Below are positions 1-17,722 of a DNA stretch of 20,300 nucleotides, one piece after another. The stretch is from positions 1-20,300 of IMG/VR virus record IMGVR_UViG_3300048091_000220; one strand, given 5' to 3'. The notes below the pieces were generated by a model, which was not told where the DNA came from, ran no database searches, and worked only from the letters and a program-made list of their open reading frames with translations. Source of the DNA: a virus. Positions within the stretch are counted from its first letter, which is position 1, and each line of letters starts with the position of its first letter. The translations under genes and the position numbers were made by a program.

Positions 1-215
1 AGTCCGGCATGGTGGACGGCGCGGAGATCGAGGTCGGCCCACAGGCTGCGCGCGAACTGGTCGAGGGCTACGTCTTCCCGAACCGGCCGATGGTCGAGGG
101 CCTTCACGTCGCCTGGTCGATCCTGCACGCTGCCATCGTCGGCATCAGCTTAAAAAAAGCGCCCGGCGCGGGGGAGGTGCCGCTGGCCCCCAGCCCCTCC
201 GAAAAGGACAGCTGA
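1..215 (+). CDS. Phage tail assembly chaperone, lambda gpG-like (5' end off window)
   Basis: The reading frame is already open at the left edge (codons from base 3), so the true start probably lies outside; the first ATG is at 9. The visible 68 residues (from MVDGAEIEVG) contain YVFPNRPMVEG and then a VAWSILHAAIVGISLKK stretch, and end at TGA 213-215. This pattern and the position just before a tape measure gene fit the short chaperone that coats the tape measure protein while the tail tube is built. A run of seven A at 152-158 lies in frame as AAA AAA and could shift some ribosomes into the frame of the next ORF. The function comes from gene order and the frameshift arrangement rather than a clear family signature, so the exact family is uncertain. 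Confidence 0.6.
   Translation, partial: SGMVDGAEIEVGPQAARELVEGYVFPNRPMVEGLHVAWSILHAAIVGISLKKAPGAGEVPLAPSPSEKDS
152..158 (+). promoter_or_regulatory. Candidate programmed -1 ribosomal frameshift site (A AAA AAA)
   Basis: In the frame of the upstream chaperone the codons are AGC TTA AAA AAA GCG, giving the slippery heptamer A AAA AAA followed by G. A -1 slip moves ribosomes into the frame of the 233-379 ORF. That frame is open without a stop from 158 through 379, so a fused G-GT product would result. A GC-rich stretch (160-175) follows directly and could slow ribosomes. Programmed -1 shifting between two tail chaperone ORFs just before the tape measure gene is well established for lambda G/GT and many siphophages; its use here is inferred. 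Confidence 0.65.
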
Positions 216-232
216 TCGCCAACTGCGGCGGG

Positions 233-379
233 ATGCACCTGGATTGGGAAAGACTATCGCTTTCAGGCTACTTCGAGGCGCTGGAAGCCCACAATGAGGC
301 GCATGCGACCCCTGGTGCCGAGGCAAGGCAACCGGGGGATCCTGAAAGATTGCGGAGGTTTGTGGAGGCGCACCGGTAG
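233..379 (+). CDS. Tail assembly chaperone T-domain, probably made as a -1 frameshift extension (GT-like)
   Basis: This is a 48-residue reading frame from ATG 233 (MHLDWERLSLSGYFEALEAH onward) to TAG 377-379. The WERLSLSGYFEALEAHNEAH segment resembles small C-terminal chaperone domains that contact the tape measure protein. There is no convincing ribosome binding site before ATG 233, but the same frame is open back to 158, where an A7 slippery run in the upstream ORF would feed ribosomes into it. The likely real product is therefore a fusion with the upstream protein, with linker residues SARRGGGAAG and onward. It could alternatively be translated alone from 233. The next late gene, the tape measure gene, only starts at 1235 because two minus-strand genes intervene. 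Confidence 0.6.
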   Translation: MHLDWERLSLSGYFEALEAHNEAHATPGAEARQPGDPERLRRFVEAHR

Positions 380-397
380 CGATGCGCCTCCGGTATC

Positions 398-733
398 TCA
401 TTCTTCGTTCTTGAGGCCGACGCACTGTTTCCATGCGCCGCCAATCGTGCCGAACTTCTTGCGATATTCGATCCGACTGCCATTGCCTTCCGGATAGACC
501 GAGAAGGCCATGGAGACGCCACCGTACCCGTTCTTGATCAGAACAACCCGCGAACCGTCATCACGGGGCATCGGAGCGGTGTTGTTTTTATTAGCCAGAC
601 AGAAGGCAACCTCGTCAGCGCTCTTCTGGGTGTGGAAGACTTCCTTGGGCTCTTCGCTTAAAACCTTGTTGGTAGAAGCGCAGCCCGCAAGACCAAGCGC
701 TGCCGCTACGGCAGCGATCGCAATGTACTTCAT
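398..733 (-). CDS. Small lipoprotein, likely prophage cargo (moron) gene
   Basis: The product is 111 residues with a lipoprotein signal: MKYIAIAAVAAALGLAGCAS, with lipobox LAGC and lipidated Cys18. The rest is small and soluble and holds two further cysteines (CLANK and QCVG). A strong ribosome binding site (AAGGGGGG) lies about five bases before ATG 733. A short hairpin (748-753 with 758-763) lies in the 5' leader. The gene runs against the surrounding tail operon and sits between the chaperone and tape measure genes, an atypical place that suggests an autonomous unit expressed from the lysogen. A surface role such as superinfection exclusion is possible but not shown. I do not recognise the family of the mature domain. 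Confidence 0.7.
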   Translation of the reverse strand: MKYIAIAAVAAALGLAGCASTNKVLSEEPKEVFHTQKSADEVAFCLANKNNTAPMPRDDGSRVVLIKNGYGGVSMAFSVYPEGNGSRIEYRKKFGTIGGAWKQCVGLKNEE

Positions 734-852
734 ATAACCCCCCTTAAGCTGCGGATTCGCAGCGGCCGGACCATTATTTCCGGCGGGCGGTTTGTCTACT
801 AAATTTTCCGTATCTTAGGTTAATGATCAGACGTAGTGGCGATGCTTATCCG

Positions 853-1194
853 TTACTTGCACGCCCGCATTTCGGCGTCGGTCTTGGCTGACCGCGTGCA
901 GTCGTTGACAGGGATCGGATCGCTACCGGCCGAAGCGCTTGAGGGATCGGTTTCCTCGTAACCGGAGCCGAGGCTGAGTTCAGAACCGAACCCGCCGGCA
1001 CTCCCCTGCGCCGAAAGCCATATCGCAAAGCCGACTGCTCCCCAAAAGGCAATCAGTGCTCCGATCATGGCGCTTTCTTTCAGCTTTCCAGCCTCGGTGC
1101 GGAAGCTGCTGGACGCGAATATCTCGATCGATTTCACCAGCAGATACACGCATCCAAGCCAACCAATGATCTGAAGCAATCCATCCTCCGGCAC
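853..1194 (-). CDS. Small membrane protein with two TM segments, possible cargo gene
   Basis: The frame encodes up to 113 residues from GTG 1194. An in-frame TTG at 1179 has a better-placed GGAGGA ribosome site, so the protein may start at LLQIIGWLGC. Two hydrophobic segments are visible (about residues 6-27 and 42-63). They are followed by a Gly/Ser-rich stretch and a tail with two cysteines, DCTRSAKTDAEMRACK. The orientation and position match the lipoprotein gene at 398-733, from which it is separated by about 120 bases, so the two may be one minus-strand unit. An antisense frame (980-1702) overlaps but is a shadow. The family was not recognised, and a membrane location is the only supported prediction. 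Confidence 0.55.
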   Translation of the reverse strand: MPEDGLLQIIGWLGCVYLLVKSIEIFASSSFRTEAGKLKESAMIGALIAFWGAVGFAIWLSAQGSAGGFGSELSLGSGYEETDPSSASAGSDPIPVNDCTRSAKTDAEMRACK

Positions 1195-1234: not shown

Positions 1235-2758
1235 ATGTCCGAAGTCGATCCCGTGATCCTCCGCCTCATGGTCGAGAGAGGCCAGTTCCTCTCCGACATC
1301 AACAACGTCAGCCGCGTGGTAGATCAGCGATTCGGCTCGATGGAGCGCGACGTTCAGGACCTTGAGCGGCAGATGAGAGCCTCGCTCGGGGGAATTTCGG
1401 ATTCCCTGAAGGGTCTGGCCGCTGCTGCTGGCATCGGCATTTCCGTCGGCCAGGTCGCGAGCTTGGCTGACGCATACACCCGCTTTACCAACTCGCTGAA
1501 GGTGGCCGGTCTCGAAGGGCAGGAACTCGGCAAGGTCCAGAACGACCTCTACGCGATTGCCCAGAAATATGGCTCGGAGCTGGAGAGCGTAGGGACGCTT
1601 TACAGTCGCATAGCCGCCAACTCGAAGGACTTGGGACTTAATCAAGAGCAGCTGCTGCAGCTCGTGTCGGGCACGTCCGCTGCTCTCAAGGTATCGGGAC
1701 AATCCGCCGAGGAAGCCTCGGGCGCTCTGCTGCAGCTTTCCCAGGCGCTGGGCGGATCGACGATCCAGGCCGAAGAATACAACAGCCTGATCGATGGCGC
1801 TCGCCCCCTCCTGCAGGCCGTGGCGAACGGATCAGACCGGTTCGCCGGCTCAGTCACCAAGCTCACGGCAGCGGTCAAAAGCGGCAACGTCAGCACCAAG
1901 GAATTCGTTCAGGCCGGGCTGCGCGGCATGCCCTCGCTCATGGCCGATGCCGAGAAGGCAGCGTTCACCCTGAGTGGCGCCCTCACCATCCTGAACAATG
2001 CGCTCGGCAAATACATCGGTGAAGCCGACCAGTCCTTGTCGGCGAGTGCCAAGGTCTCGCAAGGGATCTCGTACATCGCCGAGAATCTACGGATCATTCT
2101 CCCAGCCTTGGCCACACTCGCGACTGCAATCGGTGTGGGCTATGTTGCCGCCGCCGCCAAGGGCGCGATCTCGTCGGCGACTCTGGCTGCGGCGAACACC
2201 CGCGCCGCGCTGACTGCGGAGGCTATGGCGTCGGCCACCTATCAGGCAAACGTCGCATTGCTGGGTGAGCGAGCGGCAGCTGATCTCGCGGCGGTGTCCG
2301 TCAGCAGACTCGCTGTTGCGCAGGGCGCGGCAGCTGGCGCAGGCAATGCTCTCTTGGCAGCAGTAGGCGGCCCAATCGGTGCGGCGGTGCTGGCTCTTGG
2401 TGCAGGCTTTGCCATCCTCTCGGCGCGCGAGGCGGCTGCACAGGCTGCCGCCGATGACCTGTCGGCATCGATCGAGGGGCAAACGACCAGGTTCGAAGCG
2501 CTGCGCCAGAAGAAAGCCCAGGCCGCCGCAGAGACGAACAACCTTACGAAAAAACAGCGTGACGCGCTGACGGCTACCGCCAATCTGACCGGCGAGGCAA
2601 ACTTGCTGGCGAACGCTTGGGCGCGTGTGATGCCAACTCCAAGGCGCTCGCGAAGCACCAGGCGGTTCTCGCCGATCTCGAAAAGCTCAAGGCTGGCGCC
2701 AGCGGTAAAGAACTCGCGACGATCAACACCAAGATCGCGCGGGAGAAGGCGATCATAG
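1235..2758 (+). CDS. Tail tape measure protein, N-terminal part (frameshifted gene)
   Basis: ATG 1235 opens a 507-residue frame with the tape measure N-terminal domain (TMP_3 type). It has a coiled start (about residues 1-60), then the conserved alpha-helical block with YTRFTNSLKVAG, SGTSAALKVSGQSAEEASGA, GGSTIQAEEYNSLIDGARP and GMPSLMADAEKA. Two hydrophobic stretches follow (about residues 288-330 and 370-395), as expected for a protein that is injected or spans the membrane. After residue 465 (AWARV, about base 2629) the frame becomes Arg/Ser-rich nonsense and stops at 2758. The sense sequence continues in the -1 frame as DANSKALAKH. One base is missing relative to an intact gene of about 950 residues. 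The protein sets tail length and forms the inside of the tail tube. Confidence 0.85.
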   Translation: MSEVDPVILRLMVERGQFLSDINNVSRVVDQRFGSMERDVQDLERQMRASLGGISDSLKGLAAAAGIGISVGQVASLADAYTRFTNSLKVAGLEGQELGKVQNDLYAIAQKYGSELESVGTLYSRIAANSKDLGLNQEQLLQLVSGTSAALKVSGQSAEEASGALLQLSQALGGSTIQAEEYNSLIDGARPLLQAVANGSDRFAGSVTKLTAAVKSGNVSTKEFVQAGLRGMPSLMADAEKAAFTLSGALTILNNALGKYIGEADQSLSASAKVSQGISYIAENLRIILPALATLATAIGVGYVAAAAKGAISSATLAAANTRAALTAEAMASATYQANVALLGERAAADLAAVSVSRLAVAQGAAAGAGNALLAAVGGPIGAAVLALGAGFAILSAREAAAQAAADDLSASIEGQTTRFEALRQKKAQAAAETNNLTKKQRDALTATANLTGEANLLANAWARVMPTPRRSRSTRRFSPISKSSRLAPAVKNSRRSTPRSRGRRRS

Positions 2759-4095
2759 GCAACCTGCAGAAGGGTGTCGGAGAGACAGCGGCAATCGCCG
2801 CGGCCTCCGGGTCGGCTGCTAGCCACGCGAAAAAGAAGGACCGGACGGAACAAGAGCTGTCCAGGCTTGCGATCGAGGAATTGCAGGCGCGCTTGGATCT
2901 TGCGACCAATGCCCAAGACCGGGCCGACCTCCAGAACGAGATCTTGGCCGAAGAGCGGAAACAGCGCGTCGCCGAAATCAATTCCGACGATCAGCTATCA
3001 GCGGCTCAGAAGGCGGCGGCCCTTGCCCGCATTGCCAAGCTCTACGGGTCGTCGCCCACCGATAGCGGCGACATACCGGTCACGCCCGGCCTGCTTCAAC
3101 AGCGGATCAATCAGGACAAGGAAGAACAACTGGCGCGGGAAGCGCTGGAGCGCGCTCAGGCGGGCGCTCGAAACGATGAGGACCTTCTGCGGGCGCAAGC
3201 GGACCTCGCCATCACAAGGGCCGACCGCCGCGAAATCGAACTGAAGCTGCTGGACCTCGCCTATCAACAGGAGCGCGCAGAGCAACAGGCTGTGCTGGAC
3301 AGCGCCACCGCCTCCGACGCCCAGCGCGAGATTGCGGCAGAGCGCCTTCGAATCCTGGACCAGCTCAAGGGATATGACGCTGAACGGATCGGCCGCCAGT
3401 ACGAATCGCCCTTGGAGCAGAAGCGCCGAGAAGCCCGAGAGACGGCCGCCAACATGGGCGACGCGATCGAGAACATCCAGATCGATGCCGTCGATCATCT
3501 GGGCGACAGCATCGCAAACGCCACCCAGGAATACATCAAACTGGGCGGCGTGGCAGGCGACGTCATCAACTCGATCATCGCGGATCTGATCAAGCTCCAG
3601 ATCAAGCAAGCCATCTTTGGAAGCGCAGGCGGCGGGCTGTTCTCGATGTTCGGCCTCGGTGGCGGCTCTTCGCTGTCCGGCGTCAACTATGGATCGATCG
3701 CGAGCGCTGCCGGTTCGGTGAAAATCCCCGGTTTCGCGTCAGGGGGTTACACCGGCGATGGCCCCGCCGACCAGGCCGCCGGCATCGTGCACAAGGGCGA
3801 GTTTGTCGTTCCTGCGGATGCCGTGAAACGCATTGGAGTGCAGAACCTTGCCGCAATGTCGAATGCCCGGGCCGCGGCGTCCATGGCCGGCGTAACGGCA
3901 GCCGGCGCCGCCCCTCGCCCAGTTGCGCAGACCGTGCTCGTCCAGGTGGAGGCCAACGATTACTTCGATGCCAGGGTGAAGCAAGGTGCGGCATCGGTCG
4001 CGCAGCCCATCGGCATGGCCGCTGCTGTCCAGGCCCGCACCGACGCCGGTACGGACGTAGCGCGACAGGCCCGCAGGCGCATCCCCGGGCGCTGA
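2617..4095 (+). CDS. Tail tape measure protein, C-terminal part (frameshifted gene)
   Basis: This is the continuation of the 1235 gene in the -1 frame. The frame is open from 2563; the TTG at 2617 is only a nominal start, and meaningful sequence begins near 2629 (DANSKALAKHQ). It holds long charged coiled-coil helices (about 2640-3500), then an Ala/Ile-rich helix (VINSIIADLIKLQIKQAIFG). The Gly-rich C-terminus, FASGGYTGDGPADQAAGIVH followed by KGEFVVPADAV, is a hallmark of lambda gpH-like and related tape measure proteins. No slippery heptamer lies at the junction. The A6 run at 2549-2554 would shift ribosomes to a stop at 2560, so a programmed shift is unlikely. A one-base deletion or sequencing error is the simplest reading. 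Confidence 0.85.
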   Translation: MGACDANSKALAKHQAVLADLEKLKAGASGKELATINTKIAREKAIIGNLQKGVGETAAIAAASGSAASHAKKKDRTEQELSRLAIEELQARLDLATNAQDRADLQNEILAEERKQRVAEINSDDQLSAAQKAAALARIAKLYGSSPTDSGDIPVTPGLLQQRINQDKEEQLAREALERAQAGARNDEDLLRAQADLAITRADRREIELKLLDLAYQQERAEQQAVLDSATASDAQREIAAERLRILDQLKGYDAERIGRQYESPLEQKRREARETAANMGDAIENIQIDAVDHLGDSIANATQEYIKLGGVAGDVINSIIADLIKLQIKQAIFGSAGGGLFSMFGLGGGSSLSGVNYGSIASAAGSVKIPGFASGGYTGDGPADQAAGIVHKGEFVVPADAVKRIGVQNLAAMSNARAAASMAGVTAAGAAPRPVAQTVLVQVEANDYFDARVKQGAASVAQPIGMAAAVQARTDAGTDVARQARRRIPGR

Positions 4096-12236: not shown

Positions 12237-12602
12237 ATGGAAAACTTCTCGCTGTCGGATTGGCTCACTGCAGCGGCCTACACGCTGCTTGCAGCCGTCG
12301 GGGGCCTGCTCGGACATGCCATGCGTGAGCATGACAAAGGCAATAAGCTGAACTGGCTGCGAGCCATGACCGAATCCGTGTCATCCGGTTTCGTCGGATT
12401 TCTCGTCATGCTGCTTTGCTTGGCGATGGGCCTCGATCCTTTGTGGACCGGTCCCATCGTCGGGCTATTCGGATGGCTCGGCGCCAACGTCACTATCCGG
12501 ATGCTGGAACGCATCGTTTACGAAAAACTGGGGGTCAAACTGCGCGCCAACACCGACAAGAGAGTGGCAGCGGCTAAAGCTCAAGAGGAGGACAGGCCGT
12601 GA
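12237..12602 (+). CDS. Phage holin, superfamily III / LydA-like
   Basis: The product is 121 residues from ATG 12237. Three hydrophobic segments are visible: about residues 9-27 (WLTAAAYTLLAAVGGLLG), 48-66 (SSGFVGFLVMLLCLAMG) and 70-88 (WTGPIVGLFGWLGANVTI). They are followed by a charged cytoplasmic tail (KLRANTDKRVAAAKAQEEDR). The pattern of a conserved polar loop between the first two segments and a GLFGWLG stretch fits LydA-type holins. It would form the inner-membrane holes that release the upstream muramidase. Its stop overlaps the GTG start of the next gene (GTGA at 12599-12602), so translation is coupled to the spanin gene. Confidence 0.8.
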   Translation: MENFSLSDWLTAAAYTLLAAVGGLLGHAMREHDKGNKLNWLRAMTESVSSGFVGFLVMLLCLAMGLDPLWTGPIVGLFGWLGANVTIRMLERIVYEKLGVKLRANTDKRVAAAKAQEEDRP

Positions 12603-12988
12603 AATGGCTTCTCAATCTGCTTGCACCCTTCAGGTCCGAACTTTTCGCCATGGTCGGCGTGCTGGCGGTTTGCGGAATAGGTGCGGCCATCGCTGGCTAT
12701 TTGCACATCCAGCGGCAGAACGACCAGATCGAGAATCTAGATGCGCGGGTTGGTGACCTCGTGGTCGCCAATAAGGGGTGGGCCGCACGCGTCGCAGAGC
12801 AGGATCGTCTCCGAGGGCTGGAGCAGAAGAATGTCCTGCTACTCCAGGACAAGCTCGCCCTCATCGAACAGCAGAACACCGCCGCTGCCGCGCAGCTCAA
12901 GCAATTGGAGGCCACCAATGCCGAGGTTAAGGAATATCTCTCTCGCCCTATCCCTGCTGACCTGCGCCGCCTGCTCGACAAAAGGTGA
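12599..12988 (+). CDS. Rz-like inner-membrane spanin subunit
   Basis: The product is 129 residues from GTG 12599, which overlaps the holin stop by four bases. It has a short cytoplasmic end, one TM segment (about residues 13-35, SELFAMVGVLAVCGIGAAIAG) and a long charged coiled coil (about 40-115) rich in Gln, Leu and Glu. It ends LRRLLDKR. This layout, its place after the holin, and a lipoprotein ORF overlapping its 3' end in another frame are the classic Rz/Rz1 arrangement. It would link to the outer-membrane partner and fuse the two membranes in the last lysis step. The sequence family is too variable for a motif, so the call rests on topology and context. Confidence 0.8.
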   Translation: MKWLLNLLAPFRSELFAMVGVLAVCGIGAAIAGYLHIQRQNDQIENLDARVGDLVVANKGWAARVAEQDRLRGLEQKNVLLLQDKLALIEQQNTAAAAQLKQLEATNAEVKEYLSRPIPADLRRLLDKR

Positions 12989-13193
12989 GATCGCCGCGGT
13001 GCCGCCCGCGCCGGCCTACCAAGGTATCCCGGCCGGGCTGATGACCCGTTGCGTCGTGAAGGACGTGGAGATGCTCACGACAGGCGACATCGTCACGAGC
13101 CGGAACCTCTACAAGGATGGGTTCGAAAAGTGCGCCGCGAAGGTGGACGCAATCCGCGAGCATGACGCGGCAGCGAGGGCGTTGGGCGACTAA
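12918..13193 (+). CDS. Rz1-like outer-membrane lipoprotein spanin, overlapping Rz
   Basis: ATG 12918 starts inside the Rz gene in the +1 frame; the first 71 bases overlap. The product is 91 residues. The signal is MPRLRNISLALSLLTCAACS, with lipid Cys most likely at residue 19 (AAC) or else 16. A short Pro-rich stretch (VPPAPAYQG) follows, as is usual for Rz1, then an extended region with two more cysteines (TRCVVKDVE and GFEKCAAK). It is longer than many embedded Rz1 proteins because it runs about 200 bases past the Rz stop. A damaged copy of its last 60 bases lies at 13807-13866. The function is inferred from overlap architecture and lipobox. Confidence 0.75.
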   Translation: MPRLRNISLALSLLTCAACSTKGEIAAVPPAPAYQGIPAGLMTRCVVKDVEMLTTGDIVTSRNLYKDGFEKCAAKVDAIREHDAAARALGD

Positions 13194-17630: not shown

Positions 17631-17722
17631 GGAGACGTGGGTGAGTGGCTGAAACCAGCGGTTTGCTAAACCGTCGTACCCTTAAGGGGGTACCGAGGGT
17701 TCGAATCCCTCCGTCTCCGCCA
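17631..17722 (+). tRNA. tRNA-Ser (anticodon GCU), CCA encoded
   Basis: The acceptor stem GGAGACG (17631-17637) pairs with CGTCTCC (17712-17718), then G73 and an encoded CCA (17720-17722). The anticodon loop TTGCTAA (17663-17669) sits on GCGGT/ACCGT and gives anticodon GCU for AGC/AGT codons. A long variable arm (TACCC...GGGTA region 17677-17693) is the class II serine hallmark. The T arm GAGGG-TTCGAAT-CCCTC (17695-17711) is perfect. tRNA 3' ends are common integration targets, but no second copy of the 3' end is in this window. Confidence 0.95.

Follow-up and report, generated by a model that had tools for sequence, protein, structure and literature searches.

The HK97 exclusion protein gp15, a predicted inner-membrane protein, blocks DNA injection, and HK97 hybrids that carry the tail tube and tape measure (TMP) genes of HK022 escape it (PMC10883804). 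DNA injection is also blocked by the inner-membrane protein SieA of P22, and the exclusion lipoprotein Ltp of TP-J34 is overcome by an altered TMP (PMC10883804). In mEp021, gp81 excludes its own phage when expressed (PMC11893012). An orientation antisense to the lytic genes of the prophage has been described as typical of moron loci (PMC7067206).

The stretch of DNA analysed here (the window) comprises the first 20.3 kb of the virus record IMGVR_UViG_3300048091_000220. In it, a lipoprotein gene (LIPO) and a gene for a protein with two transmembrane segments (TM2) occupy the slot between the tail chaperone genes and TMP. TM2 resembles HK97 gp15 in being a small membrane protein encoded at this position. 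The gp15 gene is, however, on the sense strand and its product has 62 aa and one hydrophobic segment, whereas TM2 is antisense and has two. By eye, no sequence relation to gp15 was seen, and membership of TM2 in the gp15 family is not claimed because a PHROG profile search gave no match for it. LIPO has no counterpart in the HK97 slot. Like mEp021 gp81 and the mEp010 lipoproteins (Lpp), it is encoded by a lipoprotein gene in the structural cluster of a temperate siphophage, and the gp81 gene is also antisense in the tail cluster, but gp81 is a coliphage protein of 72 aa encoded beyond the tail fibre gene J. Ltp can be likened to LIPO as a lipoprotein, although its host is Gram-positive. SieA, found with an antirepressor region, recalls the Synechococcus phages, in which TM2 has an AntA antirepressor and an RHH repressor as neighbours; unlike TM2, SieA has 162-164 aa with three TM segments, and the phage on which it acts is short-tailed. 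The features of the window referred to below are the following.

3..379, plus strand: end of the tail-assembly-chaperone region, with the C-terminal part of an ORF at 3-215 and the ORF 182-379; bounds the slot on its upstream side; function assigned by position
364..391: hairpin of 12 bp shortly after the LIPO stop codon, sharing sequence with the 3' end of the convergent tail ORF, without a T run
398..733, minus strand: LIPO, encoding a 111-aa lipoprotein whose lipobox is LAGC and whose mature form starts CAST
734..852, minus strand: A+T-richer gap between TM2 and LIPO, G+C 0.50
738..745, minus strand: LIPO Shine-Dalgarno, AAGGGGGG, four bases 5' of the LIPO ATG, assigned from sequence
853..1179, minus strand: TM2, encoding a 108-aa protein with two TM segments; start codon TTG; C-terminal tail with two cysteines that are conserved
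1184..1189, minus strand: TM2 Shine-Dalgarno, GGAGGA, four bases upstream of TTG 1179, assigned from sequence
1235..4095, plus strand: TMP, two ORFs with a frame break near 2620-2640; downstream edge of the slot
12237-13193: holin and two-part spanin set, behind a transglycosylase-like gene
17631-17722: tRNA-Ser (GCT), between phage genes and host-like genes (TonB-type receptor, FCD-like regulator)

The window contains the prophage end that carries the tail and lysis genes; beyond it lie the tRNA-Ser and then host-like genes. Judged by its relatives, it is a Sphingomonadales prophage, LIPO homologues in genomes being almost wholly from Sphingomonadales, and the tRNA-Ser is a likely attachment site. 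An earlier, sequence-only reading of this DNA had placed LIPO and TM2 head-on to the tail operon, between two tail blocks, and both flanks were confirmed as tail genes. The plus-strand gene at 1235 was identified as TMP by its match to TMP_3 (E 5e-49), and the 182-379 ORF is kept directly upstream of TMP in relatives. The position of the 3..379 ORFs equals that of the TAC11 genes gp41/gp42 in vB_MseS-P1. At 2617-2758 the window lacks about 352 bp of TMP relative to the related locus L053, and therefore the reading frame is broken and the gene lies in two frames; either the gene is damaged or the assembly is at fault.

The predicted minus-strand lipoprotein ORF was found at 398-733, with AST after LAGC; the alanine at +2 predicts sorting of LIPO to the outer membrane. 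More than 40 homologues were collected, 25 in viral contigs and 23 in genomes, the two sets partly overlapping. Their alignment had 14 invariant columns, including the CAST that comes after the lipobox and two more cysteines, and dN was 0.11-0.19 against a dS of 1.0 to saturation, which indicates purifying selection. A Shine-Dalgarno of the GGGG type is frequent among LIPO genes, and beyond it no promoter block was conserved upstream of them. The earlier statement that the family of neither mature domain could be recognised was overturned for LIPO: the protein matched the phrog_914 profile over residues 8-95 (E 5.9e-11) and is, on this profile evidence, a remote member of phrog_914, a family of unknown function. 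A further phrog_914 member (E 1e-21), p33 of Pseudomonas phage phiAH14a, was also the top fold match of LIPO; its gene lies in the left arm, on the integrase/repressor strand, unlike LIPO in its tail slot. With the AlphaFold2 model of LIPO (pLDDT 86) a PDB fold search gave weak matches only (best E 0.03), and sequence searches found no solved-structure relatives of either LIPO or TM2. No plasmid match for LIPO was found, and tblastn gave no LIPO match in cultured phages. Two assignments were rejected. Homology of LIPO to Cor (phrog_1119) was not borne out, as only the signal peptide matched (residues 1-23, E 0.085) and the mature protein did not; and E. coli YfjS, considered as the phrog_914 match of the E. 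coli control, belongs to phrog_5248.

For the second gene the minus-strand two-TM ORF was confirmed, but its end had been set at 1194, 15 bases too far. All close TM2 homologues start with MLQIIGWLGC, which in the window corresponds to TTG 1179; because of this shared start and the GGAGGA upstream, the start is most likely TTG 1179 and not GTG 1194. About ten homologues were found, with a dN/dS of about 0.16-0.27 where dS was unsaturated. In every complete member, two hydrophobic segments precede a C-terminal tail that contains two cysteines; in L027 the first of these segments fell below the threshold used. The tail may be periplasmic, to which the charge pattern weakly points. The AlphaFold2 model was poor (pLDDT 65), and the earlier view that the family of TM2 could not be recognised held in the PHROG search. 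From their homologues and dN/dS values, LIPO and TM2 are genuine genes and not chance ORFs.

The G+C content was 0.55 in LIPO and 0.58 in TM2, against 0.63-0.65 in the neighbouring genes; such a departure from the surrounding composition is seen in morons. The gap at 734..852 is likely the LIPO promoter region, although it held no match to the sigma-70 consensus and no promoter was recognised in it. The 55-base stretch with the hairpin at 364..391 had a folding energy of -24.9 kcal/mol (z -3.7), and the hairpin is a possible two-way terminator.

Related prophages were compared for the presence of the block, as the sequence-only reading had proposed, and the slot was found to hold LIPO alone (L004, L005/L032, where L032 is Sphingobium jiangsuense DSM 26189), TM2 alone (L027, L029, L059), TM2 with other genes (L024, L026, L028 and Synechococcus phages) or no insert (L054-L056). 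The alignment of the close relative L053/L024 to the window ends at base 378 and resumes at 1008, and where the window has LIPO this relative carries a different gene; the breakpoint falls inside TM2, so that the membrane part is conserved and the C-terminal tail differs. Immediately upstream of TMP, TM2 recurred in antisense orientation in six additional contigs and two Synechococcus phages. It was also present away from TMP, in the neck region (L025), the head region (L060) and an integrase-bearing island (L092). The latter (L092 4913-8502, from a Sphingomonadales genome) carries a full-length TM2 homologue between integrase and SNase-like genes, with no recognisable tail module, and is perhaps a small mobile island. 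In the Synechococcus phages, a stop codon stands at the position of the Trp that TM2 otherwise conserves, and therefore the start differs or the gene has decayed.

LIPO was found antisense in the neck region (L008-L013), near the terminase (L006, L007, L014, L015, L022) and between other tail genes (L003, L061, L062). In two prophages it lies 15 bp (L052) and 39 bp (L017) behind a CI-like repressor on the same strand; a counter-example is L063, where LIPO is in sense, upstream of the terminase. In chromosomes, several lineages have LIPO behind gatCAB, and at other sites its neighbours are different host genes. In Sphingobium/Sphingomonas lineages LIPO follows gatB on the same strand (L033, L036, L037, L039, L041, L047, L049, L051). 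Phage and host copies interleave in the LIPO tree, which had modest support and whose well-supported branches force only 2-3 changes. Within Sphingomonadales, LIPO was found in 5 of 301 genomes. Variable presence, mobility, chromosomal copies, CI-like neighbours and the antisense strand thus agree with the earlier proposal of envelope-directed cargo rather than tail genes, and we are highly confident that LIPO and TM2 are mobile, non-structural cargo (morons).

To place the slot in a wider setting, a census was made by scanning with a 12-member TMP alignment, which yielded 80 loci, 79 of them usable. The chaperone and TMP blocks had been described as usually adjacent, and this was borne out: in 58 of the 79 loci the gap was at most 250 bp and nothing was inserted, whereas 17 had antisense genes in the slot and 4 had a larger gap with no called antisense gene. 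Two of these four (L140, L150) contained antisense ORFs that the gene caller had missed and that encode a lipobox or signal peptide, and therefore the count is conservative; the uncalled L150 protein was homologous to the slot protein of RHph_X2_25 (E 4e-13). At least one lipoprotein or membrane/exported protein was encoded in 13 of the 17 antisense-bearing loci. Envelope families made up 12 of the 21 families in the antisense slot. The share was 9 of 47 among the sense families of these loci (P=0.0025) and 19 of 142 among the families predicted at other phage loci (P=3e-5). These P values are indicative only, since both the gene caller and the hydropathy rule were home-made and structural proteins abound in the sense control. 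In L124 the slot holds an independent pair, consisting of a membrane protein and a lipoprotein remotely homologous to LIPO (hhalign 88%), and in L119 a lipoprotein together with a relative of the Synechococcus-phage antirepressor (46% identical). Antisense slot genes are also present in the annotated phages RHph_X2_25, RHph_TM3_3_14B and vB_MseS-P1, each encoding a signal peptide or hydrophobic segment, and the same applies to gp63 of mEp021. The chaperone-TMP junction is thus a recurrent antisense slot for envelope proteins. No published hotspot at this junction was found in a literature search that reached only a minority of subscription papers.

On balance we favour the view that LIPO and TM2 are envelope morons which the lysogen expresses and which bring about superinfection exclusion by acting on DNA entry. 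As morons on the strand opposite the late operon, they would be expressed in the dormant lysogen. TM2 would span the inner membrane with two helices and expose a periplasmic tail with a probable disulphide, and LIPO would be an outer-membrane lipoprotein facing, and reaching into, the periplasm. They would hinder siphophages in bringing their DNA into the cell, probably at the step at which the tape measure protein of the newcomer passes through the periplasm and the inner membrane. Exclusion at this step appears the most likely function because of the precedents of HK97 gp15, mEp021 gp81 and antisense morons. That TMP is the target is a weaker suggestion than exclusion itself, and weakest for LIPO, since its occurrence at many sites weakens the link to TMP. 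Profile searches, including PHROG, matched neither protein to a known exclusion family; PADLOC models gave no match at E 0.1, and an NCBIfam search returned nothing useful. The slot may represent an address for uncharacterised superinfection-exclusion genes, which would be antisense, envelope-directed and beside TMP. Were its enrichment a general rule, LIPO/phrog_914 and TM2 would be candidates, together with the unrelated genes that fill the slot in other phages. Only tentatively do we suggest that the junction is, in siphophages, a dedicated antisense exclusion locus, in which unrelated lipoproteins and membrane proteins would be placed time and again because each of them blocks entry via the neighbouring TMP type, gene and target moving and recombining together.

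The chief rival to exclusion is a host-envelope function of LIPO: by lysogenic conversion without exclusion, LIPO (perhaps with TM2) would alter the host envelope for stress or fitness, a host lipoprotein having been captured repeatedly. Such a role is possible because chromosomal copies lie outside prophages, and it agrees with their conserved synteny behind gatCAB in Sphingobium and Sphingomonas, with the other host sites and with the interleaving of phage and host copies in the tree. LIPO is nevertheless too rare in the order to resemble a housekeeping lipoprotein, and the enrichment of the slot beside TMP for unrelated envelope proteins would be left unexplained, so this function is to us a serious but rather doubtful alternative. 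It seems improbable that an outer-membrane LIPO shields a phage receptor as Cor or Llp does. The predicted outer-membrane sorting and the correlation of lipoprotein exclusion with receptor use in mEp phages (PMC11893012) would suit such masking, but the resemblance to Cor stops at the signal peptide, and the mature domain of LIPO is very conserved across hosts, unlike that of a receptor-matched protein. A block of DNA entry is favoured over receptor masking because the slot adjoins TMP and HK97 gp15 blocks DNA entry.

Two further readings return the genes to the lytic programme. Several phages whose tails are related have TM2 at this position, as would be expected of ordinary conserved tail genes that merely lie on the other strand; yet the absence of an insert from 58 of the 79 related loci, the TM2 copies in neck, head and integrase island and the LIPO copies in chromosomes make this very improbable. 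The sequence-only reading, too, had set its cargo proposal against conserved tail structural genes, and a role as structural tail proteins was rejected on orientation, variable presence and chromosomal copies. It is scarcely credible that TM2 is a holin and LIPO an outer spanin: the size and topology of TM2 fit a holin and LIPO is a small lipoprotein, but a holin and spanin set is already present at 12237-13193, the genes oppose the late operon, their presence varies and LIPO has chromosomal copies.

Inspection of the slots by eye revealed an apparent toxin-antitoxin pair (L167 1854-2431) and an apparently HicB-like protein (L107 1235-1516), both antisense, and the slot therefore takes other lysogeny cargo too. 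In the Synechococcus phages Ssp-JY40 and Yong-M3-232 (L069 7034-8665, L070), an antisense AntA antirepressor and a TM2 relative lie upstream of TMP, and an RHH repressor in the same block is read in the opposite direction, an arrangement somewhat like the P22 immI region. In RHph_TM3_3_14B an attR is annotated inside the tape measure gene (L101 3352-3365), which would be odd for a temperate phage and is possibly an annotation error.
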